The position numbers were made by a program, and so were the translations under genes. The notes beneath the pieces are model-generated. The model had not been told where the DNA came from and ran no database searches. It was given only the letters and a program-made list of their open reading frames with translations. This document shows, in pieces, positions 55,630 to 64,000 of a DNA stretch of 64,000 nt (position 1 is the stretch's first letter; every line of letters starts with the position of its first letter). This DNA comes from Phycisphaerales bacterium (lineage in GTDB: Bacteria; Planctomycetota; Phycisphaerae; Sedimentisphaerales; Anaerobacaceae). The stretch lies in the NCBI GenBank assembly GCA_003141275.1, contig PLLM01000009.1:1-64000 (forward strand), written 5' to 3'.

Positions 55630-58600
55630 ATGGCGGTTAGGTTTATACTTGGCAGGAGCGGCACGGGCAAGACACACCATTGCGTAAAGGCAATAGTGGA
55701 TGCTTTGTCGCAGCCTGCCCCGAGCGGACCTGTGGTGAGCGCAGCCGAACCAGTCGAGGGGCCGGATAACGGGCCATTATTGCTTCTTGTTCCCGAACAG
55801 GCGACCTATCAGGCGAGCGAGGCAATACTCAGCGATACGCGTATAACCGGCTATAGTCGGCTGCACGTCCTTTCTTTTGACCGCTTAGTTTATCTTGTCC
55901 TCGGCAAAAATATCGCCAGGCCCGCGATTTCGCGCCTTGGCCGGGCAATGGTCATTCAAAGAATCCTCCGCGACTGCGCCAGCAAATTGAGCATATTTGC
56001 CGATTCGGCCGGGACTCCCGGCATCGGGCAGCGTTTGGCTGACACGATTACCCAGTTGCAGCAGTACGCGAACACGCCGGACGATATAAAAAATCTCGTG
56101 AGCAATCTGCGAAAACAGCAGGGCGACGCCTTGACAGCAGCTAAGTTCGCCGATTTGGGAATCGTTTTCGAGGAATACCTGAAGTTTATCGAAGGTAAGT
56201 TTCTTGACCCGGATATCCAACTGACTTCGGCCTGCAAGGCGGTAGCCGGCGCGGATTTGGTGCGCGGGGCGAAACTATGGGTCGATGGCTTCGCGGGCTT
56301 CACAACAGGCGAGCTTGCCCTGCTTACCGAATTGCTCAAGGTCGTCGAAGACGCCCAGATTGCCCTTTGCCTCGACCCTGCGACGACCGACATAGCCAAC
56401 CCGGACAAAAACAAAATTGACCCGACCGATTTATTCGGCCACACCGCCGAGACGTATGCCGAGCTTGTCGAGCGGGTAAAAAAGTGCAAACTCAAACTTT
56501 CTCCGCCTTTAATTTTGAATCAGCCGATGCGCTTTTCGGACAGTCCGCCGCTTGCTCATATCGAGCAGAATATTTTTAATCAGGATGCCGAAAAGATATT
56601 CGCAAGCCGTAATATTCGCGTCGTATCAGCGCAAAACGCACGTGCCGAGGTGCAGTTTGTCGCCCGGCAGATAACAAAATTAGTCAGACAAAACGGTTTA
56701 CGGTATCGCGACATCGCCGTCATCGCATCCGACCTCGATTCTTATGAAAACTACATCAAGACCTGTTTCGAGGATTACAGCATCCCCGTCTTTATAGACA
56801 AGCGAAGGCCTCTCAATCAGCATCCCGTAATAGAGATGATTTGTTCCGCGCTTAACGCGGTAACAAACGATTTTCCCGCAGGCGAGATATTCGCGTATCT
56901 CAAGACCGACCTGCTGAATATCGAGCGAGATGAAATTGACCTGCTGGAAAATTATTGTCTCGCCTTTGGCATCACCGCCGGCGACTGGAAAAGCGACAAG
57001 CCCTGGAAATACGCCGCCCAGAACGCCGAACAATTCGACGAAGAGCGTGTAAACCGAATCCGCAAAAAGGCAATCGACCCCCTGCTGGAACTGAAAAAGA
57101 AACTTGGCGATACCGCCGGCGATAATAAGTCGCTTGCCCCGGAGCAGTTCACAAAAATAATTTTCGACTTTCTTGAAGCAGCAGAAGTTCGCAAACAGTT
57201 GTCGAGTTGGGTTGAGCAGGCGATACAAAAAGGCGACTACGCGGCCGCCGACGAGCATCGCCAGTTTTATGACCGGCTAATCGACATCTTCGACGAAATG
57301 GTCGCGGCGTTTGAGGGTGTATCCCTTAACTGTGAGGATTATCTTGCGATTATGCGAAGCGCGTTTTCGCAGATAACGCTCGCGTTCATTCCTCCAAATC
57401 TTGACCAGGTGCTCGTCGGCTCGATTGAGCGCAGCCGACATCCCGATTTGAAGGCGGTTTTCCTGATTGGCACAACCGAAAGGCAATTCCCCTCACCCGT
57501 TGTTTTCGACAGCATACTAAGCGAAGAAGACCGCCTCGCCGCACAGTCATCAGGCGTTGACCTTCCGCCCGGCGTCCGACAGGAGCTTGCCAACAGGCCC
57601 TATCTTGCCTATATCGCGTTCACAAGGCCATCGGAATTTCTCTGCATTTCTTATCCGGCCGTTGACCAGAAATCGAACGCGGTTGTTCGTTCGCCTTTCG
57701 TCGATAACCTGTGCAGTTTGTTTGATGACCTTAAAGAGGAGTCGGTCGATTCCTCGCCGCCGGCTATTGAAGAGGTCTGCACAACATACGAGCTTGAGGA
57801 TATTCTTTGCTGTTCACCGCAGCCGGAAAAGTTGTTGGAGAAAATAACCCGCGATAACCAGCTTTCAGCGATTGGTTCAAGAGCGGCCAATGCGCTCGGT
57901 TATAAAAATGAAGCATCGCTGGATAGTTCAGTCGTCGGGGAGCTTTTCGATAAACAGTTGTCCAGTTCCGCGTCCCGGCTAAGCACCTTCGCCGAATGTC
58001 CCTACAGGCACTTCTCAAGATACACTCTGGGCCTGAGTAAACGCGAGGAATTCAAACTTGAGCCGCCCGACTTGGGCGAGTTTTATCACCGCGTCCTCGA
58101 CAGGTTTCTCAAAAGGGCCGTCGCCGACAAAATAGATTTCGAGACAATCGCCGACGAGGCCCTGATTAAAATCCTCGATGAGGAAACCGAACGACTTTGC
58201 CGGGAGGATTCATTTATATCCAAATTTGCCGCCCACAGTCCGCACAACGCTTTTATGATTGGCTCTGCACGGGAATATCTGCGGGATTGCGTCATCGCTA
58301 TATCGCAGATGATTCGCGCAGGCGCTTTCAGGCCCGCGATGTCCGAGATTTCATTCGGCAAATCCAAATCTGTTGACGATTCAATCGGCGAATTGACGTT
58401 AACGCTTGCCGATGGCAGACGACTCACCCTAAATGGCCGAATCGACCGGCTGGATATCGCGAAGATTGACGGGCGAAAGGTCGCTGTTGTCTTCGATTAC
58501 AAGAAACGTTCCAAAGATTCCTTTAGCTGGGCAGAGTTTTACTACGGCCTTGATATTCAGCTCGCGGTTTATATGCTCGCTGTTCGCAACGCCGCCGGGA

Positions 58601-59082
58601 AAATAGCCGACGATATCGCCGGCGCATTTTATATGCCAATCGAGATCGGTCCGGAAAATGTCGAGCTTGGCAAATCCATCGACAACAATCCCAAATTCGC
58701 CCATAAGGCAAGAGGGATATTCAACGGCAATTATTCCTCCTCGCTCGACGGCACAGCCGCAAAAGACAGTCATTATTATAATTTCTTCGTTACAAAAGAA
58801 GGCGACCCCTACGGGAAATATAATTCCTACGGCGCTCTTAAACCCGCGGATTTCGAGGCGTTTATGAATTTCGGCTCGCGCAAGATAACTGATCTTGCCG
58901 GACAAATCACGTCGGGTAAAATCACCGCTTTGCCCTATCGCCTCGGCACAGATTCGCCCTGTAAACAATGTGAATATAAACCCGTCTGCCGATTCGACTG
59001 GCAGATAAATAATTACAACCTGCTGACACGCGTCAATAAGGAGCAGGTCCTTGAGCGAATTAAAACAGATGAGTCAAAGTAA
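55630..59082 (+). CDS. addB: AddB subunit of the AddAB helicase-nuclease
   Basis: The 1150-aa protein processes DNA ends with AddA for recombinational repair. The N-terminal nucleotide loop is ILGRSGTGKT (about 6-15), followed by LLLLVPEQATYQASEAIL. A UvrD-like region follows (VLVGSIERSRHPDLKAVFLI), then the C-terminal RecB-type nuclease with an Fe-S cluster: AECPYRHFSRYTLGL and CKQCEYKPVCRFD, and VFDYKKRSKD (D-x-K). Residues about 30-46 (PSGPVVSAAEPVEG) are encoded by a dispersed repeat. Confidence 0.95.
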   Translation: MAVRFILGRSGTGKTHHCVKAIVDALSQPAPSGPVVSAAEPVEGPDNGPLLLLVPEQATYQASEAILSDTRITGYSRLHVLSFDRLVYLVLGKNIARPAISRLGRAMVIQRILRDCASKLSIFADSAGTPGIGQRLADTITQLQQYANTPDDIKNLVSNLRKQQGDALTAAKFADLGIVFEEYLKFIEGKFLDPDIQLTSACKAVAGADLVRGAKLWVDGFAGFTTGELALLTELLKVVEDAQIALCLDPATTDIANPDKNKIDPTDLFGHTAETYAELVERVKKCKLKLSPPLILNQPMRFSDSPPLAHIEQNIFNQDAEKIFASRNIRVVSAQNARAEVQFVARQITKLVRQNGLRYRDIAVIASDLDSYENYIKTCFEDYSIPVFIDKRRPLNQHPVIEMICSALNAVTNDFPAGEIFAYLKTDLLNIERDEIDLLENYCLAFGITAGDWKSDKPWKYAAQNAEQFDEERVNRIRKKAIDPLLELKKKLGDTAGDNKSLAPEQFTKIIFDFLEAAEVRKQLSSWVEQAIQKGDYAAADEHRQFYDRLIDIFDEMVAAFEGVSLNCEDYLAIMRSAFSQITLAFIPPNLDQVLVGSIERSRHPDLKAVFLIGTTERQFPSPVVFDSILSEEDRLAAQSSGVDLPPGVRQELANRPYLAYIAFTRPSEFLCISYPAVDQKSNAVVRSPFVDNLCSLFDDLKEESVDSSPPAIEEVCTTYELEDILCCSPQPEKLLEKITRDNQLSAIGSRAANALGYKNEASLDSSVVGELFDKQLSSSASRLSTFAECPYRHFSRYTLGLSKREEFKLEPPDLGEFYHRVLDRFLKRAVADKIDFETIADEALIKILDEETERLCREDSFISKFAAHSPHNAFMIGSAREYLRDCVIAISQMIRAGAFRPAMSEISFGKSKSVDDSIGELTLTLADGRRLTLNGRIDRLDIAKIDGRKVAVVFDYKKRSKDSFSWAEFYYGLDIQLAVYMLAVRNAAGKIADDIAGAFYMPIEIGPENVELGKSIDNNPKFAHKARGIFNGNYSSSLDGTAAKDSHYYNFFVTKEGDPYGKYNSYGALKPADFEAFMNFGSRKITDLAGQITSGKITALPYRLGTDSPCKQCEYKPVCRFDWQINNYNLLTRVNKEQVLERIKTDESK
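55722..55764. repeat. dispersed-repeat insertion in addB
   Basis: GTGAGCGCAGCCGAACCAGT is the recognisable centre. It belongs to the CCTGAGCGCAGTCGAA-type repeats at 16654-16680 and 31444-31467, and adds about 15 codons between the P-loop helix and the LLLLVPEQ strand without breaking the frame. Confidence 0.6.
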
Positions 59083-62000
59083 AGTTAATCCGCCTCGACA
59101 GATAAAATGGACGACACAGCAAAGCCGGGCCATTGTTGAGCACGGCAGGAACGTCTTTGTCTCCGCTTCGGCGGGGACAGGCAAGACCGCCGTGCTTTCC
59201 GGCAGTTGCGTCAACGTCGTGACCAACCCGTCCGCCTGCCCCGACGTCTGGAGCGTACTTGTCGTTACTTTTACCGAAATGGCCGCCGAGGAAATGCGTT
59301 CCCGCATCGCAAAGCAGTTAAGCTCCGCGATGGAAACGACCTCCGACGCTGGCCTTCGCAGGCATCTCCGCAGGCAGTTGATTCTGCTCGGCGCCGCCGA
59401 CATTAGTACCATTCACTCATTCTGCAAACGCATTATCACCGAGCATTTTTACGAAATCGGGCTTGACCCGACCTTTCGTATTATCGACGCCGACGAGGCG
59501 AAACTGCTCAAGACCGAGATACTCGAAAAAACAATCGACTGGGCCTGGAAACAAAACAATATAGCCGAGGCGCTGCGGCAGCTTATGGCTCGCAGGGACT
59601 TGCGAATGACGGACGGCTTCCCCGCGACCATAATCGAGATAAGTGATTTTCTCGATGGCGTCGTATCGCGCGATAACTGGCTTGAGCGGGCGAAAGTTTT
59701 AGCCGAAGCAGTTGACCCGTTCGCTACCGATATTGCCCAGGCCCAAAAGCAAATCGTAACAGATAAACTCCAGGACGCGCTTGGCCGGCTCGAATTTGCG
59801 ATGAAAGTTTATAATGACCAGAATCTGTCCGGCAAGTGGGCCGCGAAATGCAGAAACGAATATATAAAACCTGTTCAGCAATGTATCGAGCAATTCAACG
59901 CAGGCCGGTGGGAATTCGAAAGACCGAAAGTTTATAAACCAACGGATGTCTCGCAGGCGGAATTTATCGGCGGAATCGTAGGTGATGCCCTTGATTCCGT
60001 CAGGGAACTCAAAAACTTGGCTATTTTAAATCCCGAATACCTTAACAAATTCGCCGGTGCAATCGGCACGCAGACAAGAGTCCTCGTCGAATTAGTCAAA
60101 CGTTTCGATGATTCGTATCGCCAGGCCAAAAAGGCAATCAACTGTTTGGATTTCGCTGACCTTGAACATTATGCGTTGTGTTTGCTTACTGCGGAAGAAT
60201 CCAAACCATCACAGACCGCGTTGAAACTGCGTAAGAAATACAAATACGTTTTTGTGGATGAATACCAGGATATCAACGATGTCCAGCAGGCAATCATCGA
60301 TATGGTCGGTTCGCCCGGCAACGTCTTCGCAGTAGGCGACCCGAAGCAAAGCATTTACCGTTGGCGCGGCGCGAGACCTGAAATTTTTATTGAGCATCTT
60401 GGCCGAGCGTCGATAAAACCGGAATCGAGTAACGCAGGTCTGCGCGTTGACCTCAACGTCAATTTCCGCTCCGTCAAACCAATACTTGATTTTGCCAATA
60501 AGGTATTCGGCCGGATAATGACCGCCTCGTTTGCCGGCATCGATTACGATGAGTCGGCATATCTTAAGCCCAATTCTGATACCGCCGAAACCGCGATTTC
60601 TCCTGCCGTTGAATTGCACATACTCGATGAGGCACAAGACAATTCCGATGCGTCGTCCTTAAGTGACAGGCAACTACAGGCAGCGATGATTGCCCGGCGA
60701 ATAAAGCAGCTCGTAGATGCCGATTCAAATGAGCGAATCCTCGACAAAGAAACAAAAAATCCGCGCCCCGTCGAGTATCGTGACATTGTTATCCTGATGC
60801 GCTCGCTTGCGGGCAAAAGCGACTTTATCGAAGCGCTGCGACTCACCGGCATTCCCGTAAGCTGCGATGCCGCCGCCGGCTATTTCGAGGCGACCGAAAT
60901 CACCGATATGTTGTGCCTGCTGAAGGTCCTCGATAACCCGCGGCGCGACATAGAGTTTGCCGCGACACTGCGTTGCCCATTTTTCCGGTTCACCGACACC
61001 GAACTCGCAAAAATTCGTTTACATGGCAAAAAAGATAATCACAATTTTAGCTTCTATGATTGCGCAATGTCTTTTTGTAAATCGAGAAGCGAACTGGCAG
61101 ATAAACTTATTAAATCATTCGCCGCGCTCGACGAATGGCGAACCGTTGCGCGCCGAGGCCGGCTCGCAGAATTAATTTGGCACATCTATCGCCGGACCGG
61201 CTATTTGTCATTTGTCTGTGCTTTGCCAGATGGTCCTGCTCGCAGGGCCAATCTGCTCAAACTTCACGACAGGGCCATTCAGTTCGAGGGGTTCGCGGGC
61301 AATTCGGGTGTTCCCTCGCTTACCCGCTTCATCGTTTTTTTAGAGAAGCTCATCTCCGCTGGCGAGGACTGGTCAAAGCCCCAGCCCGAAGCCGGCACAG
61401 GCAATACGGTTCGCGTTATGAGCATCCACAAAAGCAAGGGTCTCGAATTTCCCGTCGTCTTCGTCGCCGACCTCGACAGCCGGTTCAGCAAAAAGGACTT
61501 CAGCCGTGATTGTGTTCTGGATGAACACCTTACCCTCGGCCTGAAAATCATCGATGCCGAAAGCAACTCCCGCCTCGACTCGCCGGCTTACCAGGTAATC
61601 GAAGAGCGAAACCGCCGAAAGTCGCTGGCCGAGGAAATGCGAATTCTCTATGTCGCAATGACAAGGGCGATGAATCGGCTCATACTCGTCGGCTGCAAAG
61701 ACCGGGATAGCTGCCAAAACATTCTTATCGCGGCACATTCATTCGCAGACCAGCCAATCCCGTCTTGGCATCTCGATACTTACCAGAACCATCTCGACTG
61801 GATTTTGTCGGCACTTGGCACTGAGCAAATCCTGCATCAGGTATTTCAAACCAAACTGCCGACGCAAGCCACACAGGATAATTTGTTCAGCGTTCAGTTT
61901 TACGACCAGCCGGAGTTGGTGAAATTTTCCGCTGCTATCCATCCCTCAAAACTAAAAACTCAAAATTCAACACTCAAAACTCAAGTCGTTAAATATGACC

Positions 62001-62809
62001 TGGCCGGCCTTAAACGCTCTCTTGATTGGCAATACCCATTCGGCAACGCGCCGGTGCTGCCCGCCAAAAGAACCGTTACCCAGTGGACTCATCGCAACGA
62101 CGAATTCGCGAAAATCGATTATTCGCTTGCCTTCGACCGAAAACCAAAAGCTGTTTTCGCGACTAAGCAAATCGATGGTAGGTCTGTCGGCACAGCCACA
62201 CACCTTGTTATGTCAAAACTTGACCTGGCTAAATCCGTAACGACTGACGCTATAAATCGACTTATTGAAAAACTCGTAAAAGATGGCGCCATTATTCAGG
62301 AAATCGCGTCGCAAATAAACGCCGAATCAATCACAAAATTCTTCAAAAGCAAACTCGGCCAAACAGTCCTCAATAAAGATAATACCGTCCTGCGAGAATG
62401 GCCATTCACCTTTGCCGTCCCCGCCTCGCAGTGGAAATCGGATAACTTAGGCGAAATACCCGCCATTGGGCGAGGTCTCGCCTTCGGCGGACGAAATACC
62501 ACGCTTCGCCAAGGCTACGCAGGGCAGGCGCAATACCCGCCATTTGGCGAGGTCTCGCCTTCGGCGGACGAAATACGAGATACAATTATCGTTCAGGGCA
62601 TAATCGATTTGCTTGTCAAAACACCTGAAGGTCTGGTGGTCATAGATTTCAAAACCGATGATGTTTCCGCCGAAAGTGCGCTAAAGCGAGCAGCAATTTA
62701 CCGCCAACAATTAGACCTTTACGCCCAGGCCGCCAGCATTATCCTTAACCAAAAAACAGGGAGCAAATGGCTCTATTTCCTGAGGCCCGGCTGCGAAGTC
62801 GAGGTCTGA
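59069..62809 (+). CDS. addA: AddA subunit of the AddAB helicase-nuclease
   Basis: The 1246-aa UvrD-like helicase/RecB-like nuclease has Walker A SASAGTGKTAVL (K39), motif Ia VVTFTEMAAEEM, motif II VFVDEYQDIND, motif III AVGDPKQSIYRWRGA, motif V MSIHKSKGLEFPVVFV and motif VI LRILYVAMTRAMN-like. The C-terminal nuclease has VQGIIDLL and VVIDFKTDD. It overlaps addB by 14 bp. An alternative TTG at 59051 adds 6 residues. Two in-frame repeat insertions lie at 61945-61985 and 62450-62576. Confidence 0.95.
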   Translation: MSQSKVNPPRQIKWTTQQSRAIVEHGRNVFVSASAGTGKTAVLSGSCVNVVTNPSACPDVWSVLVVTFTEMAAEEMRSRIAKQLSSAMETTSDAGLRRHLRRQLILLGAADISTIHSFCKRIITEHFYEIGLDPTFRIIDADEAKLLKTEILEKTIDWAWKQNNIAEALRQLMARRDLRMTDGFPATIIEISDFLDGVVSRDNWLERAKVLAEAVDPFATDIAQAQKQIVTDKLQDALGRLEFAMKVYNDQNLSGKWAAKCRNEYIKPVQQCIEQFNAGRWEFERPKVYKPTDVSQAEFIGGIVGDALDSVRELKNLAILNPEYLNKFAGAIGTQTRVLVELVKRFDDSYRQAKKAINCLDFADLEHYALCLLTAEESKPSQTALKLRKKYKYVFVDEYQDINDVQQAIIDMVGSPGNVFAVGDPKQSIYRWRGARPEIFIEHLGRASIKPESSNAGLRVDLNVNFRSVKPILDFANKVFGRIMTASFAGIDYDESAYLKPNSDTAETAISPAVELHILDEAQDNSDASSLSDRQLQAAMIARRIKQLVDADSNERILDKETKNPRPVEYRDIVILMRSLAGKSDFIEALRLTGIPVSCDAAAGYFEATEITDMLCLLKVLDNPRRDIEFAATLRCPFFRFTDTELAKIRLHGKKDNHNFSFYDCAMSFCKSRSELADKLIKSFAALDEWRTVARRGRLAELIWHIYRRTGYLSFVCALPDGPARRANLLKLHDRAIQFEGFAGNSGVPSLTRFIVFLEKLISAGEDWSKPQPEAGTGNTVRVMSIHKSKGLEFPVVFVADLDSRFSKKDFSRDCVLDEHLTLGLKIIDAESNSRLDSPAYQVIEERNRRKSLAEEMRILYVAMTRAMNRLILVGCKDRDSCQNILIAAHSFADQPIPSWHLDTYQNHLDWILSALGTEQILHQVFQTKLPTQATQDNLFSVQFYDQPELVKFSAAIHPSKLKTQNSTLKTQVVKYDLAGLKRSLDWQYPFGNAPVLPAKRTVTQWTHRNDEFAKIDYSLAFDRKPKAVFATKQIDGRSVGTATHLVMSKLDLAKSVTTDAINRLIEKLVKDGAIIQEIASQINAESITKFFKSKLGQTVLNKDNTVLREWPFTFAVPASQWKSDNLGEIPAIGRGLAFGGRNTTLRQGYAGQAQYPPFGEVSPSADEIRDTIIVQGIIDLLVKTPEGLVVIDFKTDDVSAESALKRAAIYRQQLDLYAQAASIILNQKTGSKWLYFLRPGCEVEV
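61945..61985. repeat. AAACTCAAAATTC-type repeat inside addA
   Basis: ACTAAAAACTCAAAATTCAA and CACTCAAAACTCAAG encode SKLKTQNSTLKTQ, a low-complexity Lys/Thr/Gln run inside AddA between motif VI and the nuclease. Tandem AACTCAAAATTC-like units of this sort are usually intergenic. Confidence 0.6.
62450..62576. repeat. 50-bp direct repeat inside addA
   Basis: Copies at 62450-62499 and 62527-62576 differ at two positions. The core is GGCGAGGTCTCGCCTTCGGC, with the 14-bp palindrome GGCGAGGTCTCGCC. The period is 77 bp (not a multiple of 3), so the copies are read in different frames, yet no stop arises. A 27-bp spacer CACGCTTCGCCAAGGCTACG... separates them. Confidence 0.85.
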
Positions 62810-62847: not shown

Positions 62848-64000
62848 ATGTTCACCACACCCAACACCAGGTATCTAATAGTATCAGTGTTTTTATTTCA
62901 GATGGTTGTTAGCCGCGCAGCTATCGCTTATCTTGAAACAACAAAACTTTTCCCTCCCGACGCCAACGCCGGCGACAGTTTTGGTTCTTCAGTTGCTATC
63001 GACGGCAATATTGCGGTGGTCGGAGCATATCAGAATGACTCAAATGGCAGCGACTGCGGTGCCGCTTATGTTTATGTACTTTCCGGCTCACAGTGGATTC
63101 AAAAACAAAAGCTTGTCCCTTCCGACGGTGCGGCCAACGACCAATTCGGCAAGTCGGTTGCCGTCGCAGGTAATACAATTGTCGTAGGCAGTTATTTGGA
63201 TGACAATAAAGGTTCCGCATATGTCTTTACTTGTTCAGGTGGTATCTGGTCACGGCAGCAAAAACTCGTTGCTCCCGACGCTGCCGCCAAGGACAAGTTT
63301 GGCTGCTCCGTCGCAATCGATAATAATACAATCGTCATAGGCGCTTACGGCGATGATAGCGGCAAAGGCAGCGCCTATGTTTTCACTCGCACCGGCACAA
63401 ACTGGGGCTTTCAGGGAAAACTGACTGCATCAGATGCCCAGTCGGGTGCATATTTCGGTAACAGCGTCGCAATCGACCACAACACAATTATCGCCGGCGC
63501 GCCAAATTGGAATACTCCGATTGGCTCCGCCTATTTTTATCAACGTCAAAACACGACGTGGTCTGAACAAAGTATTCTGCGCGGCGATGCCGGCCATTTC
63601 GGATACTCCGTTGCTCTCGATGGCAACTGGGCCGTTATCGGTGCGTATGAGGGCGATACCAATGTTGTTTCTGGCGCGGGTACGGCTTATGTCTTCGCCA
63701 AGACCGGTGCCGTCTGGGTCGAACAACAAAAGCTTTTTGACGCCAACTCTCCCGCTTACAGCGAGGACTTCGGCTGGGCAGTCGCCATAAAAAATGACAC
63801 AATACTTGTCGGCTGCCCTTATGATTTCGTTAATGGCAATATGACCGGCTCGGTATTCGAATTTGTACGTACTGGCACAACCTGGATTCAAAGCGCCTGG
63901 CTTACGGCTGACGATGCCAATACGAACGACAAATTTGGCTCTTCTACCGCATTATCAGGTCGTCATATCATCATTGGTTCGCCTTACAACTCTAACAACG
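62848..64000 (+). CDS. secreted FG-GAP beta-propeller protein (truncated by window end)
   Basis: The open frame from ATG 62848 (GGAGG 5 bp upstream) runs to the window edge, 384 codons so far. A signal peptide (RYLIVSVFLFQMVVSRAAIA) is followed by seven repeats of about 50 aa with consensus DxFGxSVAIDGNxxVVGA...GSAYVF, for example DQFGKSVAVAGNTIVVGSYL and DKFGCSVAIDNNTIVIGAYG. FG-GAP repeats form integrin-like beta-propellers that bind Ca2+ and partners outside the cell. The C-terminus, including any anchor, lies beyond the window. Confidence 0.9.
   Translation, partial: MFTTPNTRYLIVSVFLFQMVVSRAAIAYLETTKLFPPDANAGDSFGSSVAIDGNIAVVGAYQNDSNGSDCGAAYVYVLSGSQWIQKQKLVPSDGAANDQFGKSVAVAGNTIVVGSYLDDNKGSAYVFTCSGGIWSRQQKLVAPDAAAKDKFGCSVAIDNNTIVIGAYGDDSGKGSAYVFTRTGTNWGFQGKLTASDAQSGAYFGNSVAIDHNTIIAGAPNWNTPIGSAYFYQRQNTTWSEQSILRGDAGHFGYSVALDGNWAVIGAYEGDTNVVSGAGTAYVFAKTGAVWVEQQKLFDANSPAYSEDFGWAVAIKNDTILVGCPYDFVNGNMTGSVFEFVRTGTTWIQSAWLTADDANTNDKFGSSTALSGRHIIIGSPYNSNN

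Follow-up and report, generated by a model that had tools for sequence, protein, structure and literature searches.

The repeat in the nuclease domain of addA in this uncultured planctomycete is not a one-off duplication: three small dispersed repeats lie nested in a single, permissive AddA loop. Taking out the three inserts (33, 30 and 33 bp) restores five consecutive heptamers of the CGAAATA type, and the two outer inserts, A1 and A2, are copies of a 33-bp palindromic element that also lies at other loci of the genome. We consider it highly probable that the inserts are REP/RPE-like non-autonomous repeats which, as frame-neutral units, have been tolerated in this loop. The genome is a MAG of 3.05 Mb in 104 contigs, of which one of 78 kb holds both repeat copies; the window analyzed here is a stretch of 64,000 nucleotides of that contig. 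We refer to the window's own genome as G000, to two genomes of the same genus as G001 and G003, and to a further relative as G002.

Results

The direct repeat and its position in AddA

Our repeat search returned only one direct repeat in the region, with two 51-nt copies on the + strand (62449-62499 and 62526-62576) that are 96% identical, with 2 differences, and have a spacing of 77, in agreement with the two-copy repeat of 77-bp period that a preliminary description of this DNA had placed in addA. Its 31-nt core has 2 matches in the window versus 0 in 100 shuffles, and the further copies in G000 match part of the 51 bp only. Because 77 leaves a remainder of 2 on division by 3, each copy is translated in a frame of its own, copy 1 as ...PAIGRGLAFGG... 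and copy 2 as ...PPFGEVSPSAD..., and both are open, as had been described, within a single 1252-aa addA frame without a stop.

The host gene matches NCBIfam TIGR02785 (addA_Gpos) with an E value of 2e-257, above the cut-off of that model, and its product carries the Pfam domains UvrD-helicase, UvrD_C and PDDEXK_1, that is, UvrD helicase domains together with a PD-(D/E)XK nuclease whose motif is intact. In the AlphaFold model, which agrees in fold with AddA in crystal structures 4cej and 3u44 of AddAB, the insert forms the turn between nuclease-domain strands 132-144 and 198-211 (model numbering); pLDDT falls below 50 over residues 155-192 and exceeds 90 in the adjoining strands. The strand with the conserved VQGIIDLL motif follows the insert directly, so that the position originally given for the repeat, just before this motif, was correct. 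In an alignment with AddA of relatives the insert is absent from the same loop in G001, which has an array of ACGAGTC-type heptamers there, and in G003, which has a short loop. The proposal of a recent insertion therefore stands in that the closest relatives lack it, but the unit is a dispersed 33-bp palindrome and not a 50-bp repeat.

Across the order, the turn before VQGIIDLL varies more in length than any other part of the last 800 AddA residues (sd 11.5 versus 7.0 for the next; 74 sequences). Palindromic repeats, which fall into six families, were found in 14 of 61 distinct AddA loops, and heptamers likewise in 14 of 61, both counts being approximate because the repeat families were defined by eye. 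In different genera this turn is occupied by several other palindromic repeats, read as CPERSRR, GGSLKAEGFGDG, WHGHPDRVFWDxMSQP and ARASSPWSTARMAVP (loci L022, L128, L130, L138, L040, L041, L151, L152, L154 and L177).

Table 1. Features of addA and addB in the window, with the basis for each
Feature	Position	Strand	Basis
addB palindrome CCCCGAGC...GTCGAGGGG with apparent 24-bp in-frame insertion	55718..55761	+	comparison with G001 and G003
addA, helicase-nuclease subunit A, 1252 aa, host of the repeats	59051..62809	+	TIGR02785; Pfam
CTCAAAA heptamer array, 5.7 copies, in linker before nuclease domain of addA	61945..61984	+	sequence, relatives
Heptamer unit CGAAATA (1st of 5)	62452..62458	+	array visible once the three inserts are removed
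33-bp palindromic element, copy A1, CCCGCC-ATTG-GGCGAGGTCTCGCC-TTC-GGCGGA, read PAIGRGLAFGG	62459..62491	+	pattern match
Heptamer unit CGAAATA (2nd)	62492..62498	+	array after insert removal
Family B element, about 30 bp, CCACGCTTCGCCAAGGCTACGCAGGGCAGG	62499..62528	+	relatives at other sites
Heptamer unit CGCAATA (3rd)	62529..62535	+	array after insert removal
33-bp element, copy A2, N4 = ATTT, read PPFGEVSPSAD with neighbouring bases	62536..62568	+	pattern match
Heptamer units CGAAATA CGAGATA (4th, 5th)	62569..62582	+	array after insert removal
Nuclease strand with VQGIIDLL, intact, directly after insert	62583..62624	+	alignments; model strand E198-211

The 33-bp element and its empty sites

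The element is a 33-bp palindrome of fixed spacing, CCCGCC-N4-GGCGAGGTCTCGCC-N3-GGCGGA, with a predicted hairpin of about -18 to -19 kcal/mol. Copies were counted by pattern searches of the genomes (CCGCC-N4-GGCGAGGTCTCGCC-N3-GGCGGA, fixed spacing), with the pattern read backwards as the control; there are 16 in G000 and 4 apiece in three genomes of the same genus, the control gave 0, and the element is present in 12 of the 161 genomes of the order searched in this way. In size and dispersal it fits a REP in the broad sense, an imperfect palindrome of 20-40 bp at many dispersed, mostly intergenic sites.

The ends of the unit were fixed by empty sites of four copies outside addA, where orthologous DNA of same-genus genomes differs by exactly 33 bp (CCCGCC...GGCGGA), with insertion in either orientation and without target duplication at all four. 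On the complementary strand the inserted unit starts with TCCGCC, and the YG that precedes it belongs to the target at three of the four empty sites and is absent at the fourth. In 11 of 17 copies the element is followed on its 3' side by CA or CG, where 13.7% would be expected (P ~ 2e-6).

The two copies in addA are within ORFs that relatives support, as are at least four more, and the 33-bp insertions in addA and in four other ORFs are in frame and add 11 codons inside the ORF, as in Rickettsia palindromic elements (RPE). Of the 17 copies, 16 are stop-free in all six frames, compared with 65% expected for random N4/N3 around the same core; since this is only mildly above expectation, we do not claim selection for openness. 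Inspection of N4 and N3 by eye revealed no compensating changes. The stop-free copies, with inserted units that are multiples of 3 bp, mean that reading in two frames needs no switching mechanism, and we reject frame switching or a programmed frameshift in addA, where the frame is continuous.

Within the addA insert, A1 and A2 are identical at 32 of 33 positions and have the same orientation, and their match exceeds 33 bp because CGAAATA heptamers flank the element. The ends of family B follow from the heptamer register, and the heptamer boundaries leave A1, A2 and B each with ends that are ambiguous by at least one base.

Heptamers, family B and transposase genes elsewhere

Heptamers of the CGAAATA type are themselves dispersed, with 30 overlapping matches in G000 versus 1 for the backwards control and similar results in G001-G003. 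In another gene of G001 a 33-bp element lies within a heptamer array in the same register as in addA (..CGCCATA-[33 bp]-CGAAATA-CGCAATA..). Relatives of family B (at most 3 mismatches) lie at 1 further site in G000 and at 2 and 6 sites in G001 and G003, respectively, the backwards control being 0. A head-to-tail array of family B elements was seen in G003 (contig C22; L123, L124).

Genes for Y1_Tnp occur in these genomes, the only match in G000 being weak and at a contig edge. At the transposase loci examined in G000 (an incomplete MAG) and in six relatives that carry copies of the element, none lies beside Y1_Tnp. A RAYT was considered as the mover; the RAYT of a mobilised REP carries the element at its flanks, and none linked in this way was found at these loci.

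Other repeats in addAB

The preliminary description had counted several distinct dispersed repeats in addAB, and rightly so: the array at 61945 and the 24-bp addB insertion at 55722 are both real. The 61945 array is common to G001, and G002 and G003 carry a different AT-rich, repeat-like stretch at that position. The palindrome in addB is common to G001 and G003; its central 24 bp, present among these genomes in that of the window only, appear from the sequence to be a nested in-frame insertion. The addA gene of G001 has a 24-bp in-frame insertion of its own (L018 1891-1920, CCTGCCCTGAGCTTAGTCGAAGGG), absent from the window, which represents a further repeat family at a different site of addA. 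Directly 3' of addA, and at the same place in G001, is an open frame (62848-64000) with repeated, FG-GAP-like 'DxFGxSVAIDGNxxVVGA' units.

Discussion

REPs inside ORFs have been described before, many of them in genes of replication and repair, recBCD among them, with different REPs at about the same recB site in X. campestris and X. oryzae, and altered activity has been suggested for repair genes that carry them (Di Nocera et al., 2013; PMC3733652). Like those intragenic REPs, which belong to the GTAG and CGTC superfamilies (PMC3733652), the planctomycete element is a dispersed palindrome of 20-40 bp that sometimes lies in ORFs without introducing stops and forms grouped inserts, but it has no GTAG tag and a low copy number (16), and no linked RAYT was found. 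Most copies have a YGTC-like start on the complementary strand, as CGTC REPs do, whereas stem and loop differ from those of the CGTC families. Membership of either superfamily was rejected, given the lack of the tag and the empty sites, according to which YG is not part of the element. We therefore file the element only as REP/RPE-like in a broad sense, the tests for a GTAG/CGTC tag and for RAYT linkage having both failed. With RPE it shares its palindromic form, its in-frame position in varied protein genes and the addition of a short peptide outside conserved motifs (PMC3733652), although RPE-1 is longer than the 33 bp here and sequence and phylum are unrelated. MITEs are also short, non-autonomous and palindromic, but the four empty sites have no target-site duplication and no parent transposon was identified in a search for Y1_Tnp. 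The cyanobacterial heptanucleotide STRRs are dispersed tandem arrays of 7-bp units, as are the planctomycete arrays; their units appear to differ from those here, and the arrays here are short, degenerate and also found in coding sequence. A search of the STRR literature brought up nothing closer.

How might the nest have formed? We suggest that the 33-bp element moved in trans as a non-autonomous REP/RPE-like element, possibly via a single-stranded hairpin, and that the heptamer boundaries (..ATA/CGAAATA..) would supply its preferred C-G target. Survival of the inserts in addA would be owed to units that are multiples of 3 bp, that are almost always stop-free in any frame and that are placed in a nuclease-domain turn, where a disordered addition of 30-40 residues between two beta strands should leave the active site undisturbed. 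AddA with the insert is expected to remain active, and the insert itself is expected to have no specific function. A1 and A2 may represent two insertions, or one insertion that was copied within the array.

Did heptamers, through slippage or unequal recombination, allow a single 33-bp insertion to duplicate within addA, with B inserted between the copies? This is a sub-case of the explanation that we prefer and concerns copy number only. The near identity and common orientation of A1 and A2 and the continuation of their match into the flanks, to 51 bp in all, speak for it, and heptamer arrays are prone to slippage; however, the heptamers themselves account for the extension into the flanks, and copies that are equally A2-like (32/33) exist at other loci, for example L078, L079 and L080. 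We consider such a local duplication quite possible, if somewhat less probable than its contrary. Could the double repeat instead be an artefact of the assembler? The metagenome assembly is fragmented and assemblers can be confused by short repeats, but 2 of 51 positions distinguish the copies, which are separated by an unrelated element, no stop interrupts the reading frame, the entire 125-bp block fits within a normal short-read length and related genomes from other projects have comparable inserts at the same loop. Because the element also occurs elsewhere with clean empty sites, we regard an assembly duplication as extremely unlikely.

Two further readings would give the loop a role. If the inserts had been exapted, the loop beside the nuclease motif would have been repeatedly modified, and the added peptide or an mRNA hairpin would change AddAB activity or expression. 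Many unrelated repeats do occur in this one loop, published REPs tend toward replication and repair genes with suggested changes of activity (PMC3733652), and in RNA of 62440-62590 pairing between the palindromes can give a long stem (-56.2 kcal/mol, z -2.6). Against this, the added peptides have nothing in common in sequence and can come from any frame, the loop is short and plain in many relatives, the insert is predicted to be disordered, and a length-tolerant turn accounts for the pattern without any function, so that we hold exaptation to be unlikely. Alternatively, the turn before VQGIIDLL might be a preferred landing site, to which repair-linked DNA intermediates or the target sequence draw unrelated repeats whose peptides or hairpins tune AddAB. 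If true, this would link the spread of repeats to recombination capacity; we think it very unlikely.

As intragenic REPs in repair genes have already been published (PMC3733652), the planctomycete addA case is a new example that works alike. Its value lies in a small palindromic element whose ends are exactly known and whose empty sites are clean, with a preferred target and a fixed, frame-neutral length of 33 bp, in a phylum in which such elements have been little studied. The published oddity of recB in two Xanthomonas species (PMC3733652) is here widened to an AddA loop across an order of Planctomycetota, and with an order-wide pattern of this kind tolerance and targeting become testable by comparing the loops of many proteins.
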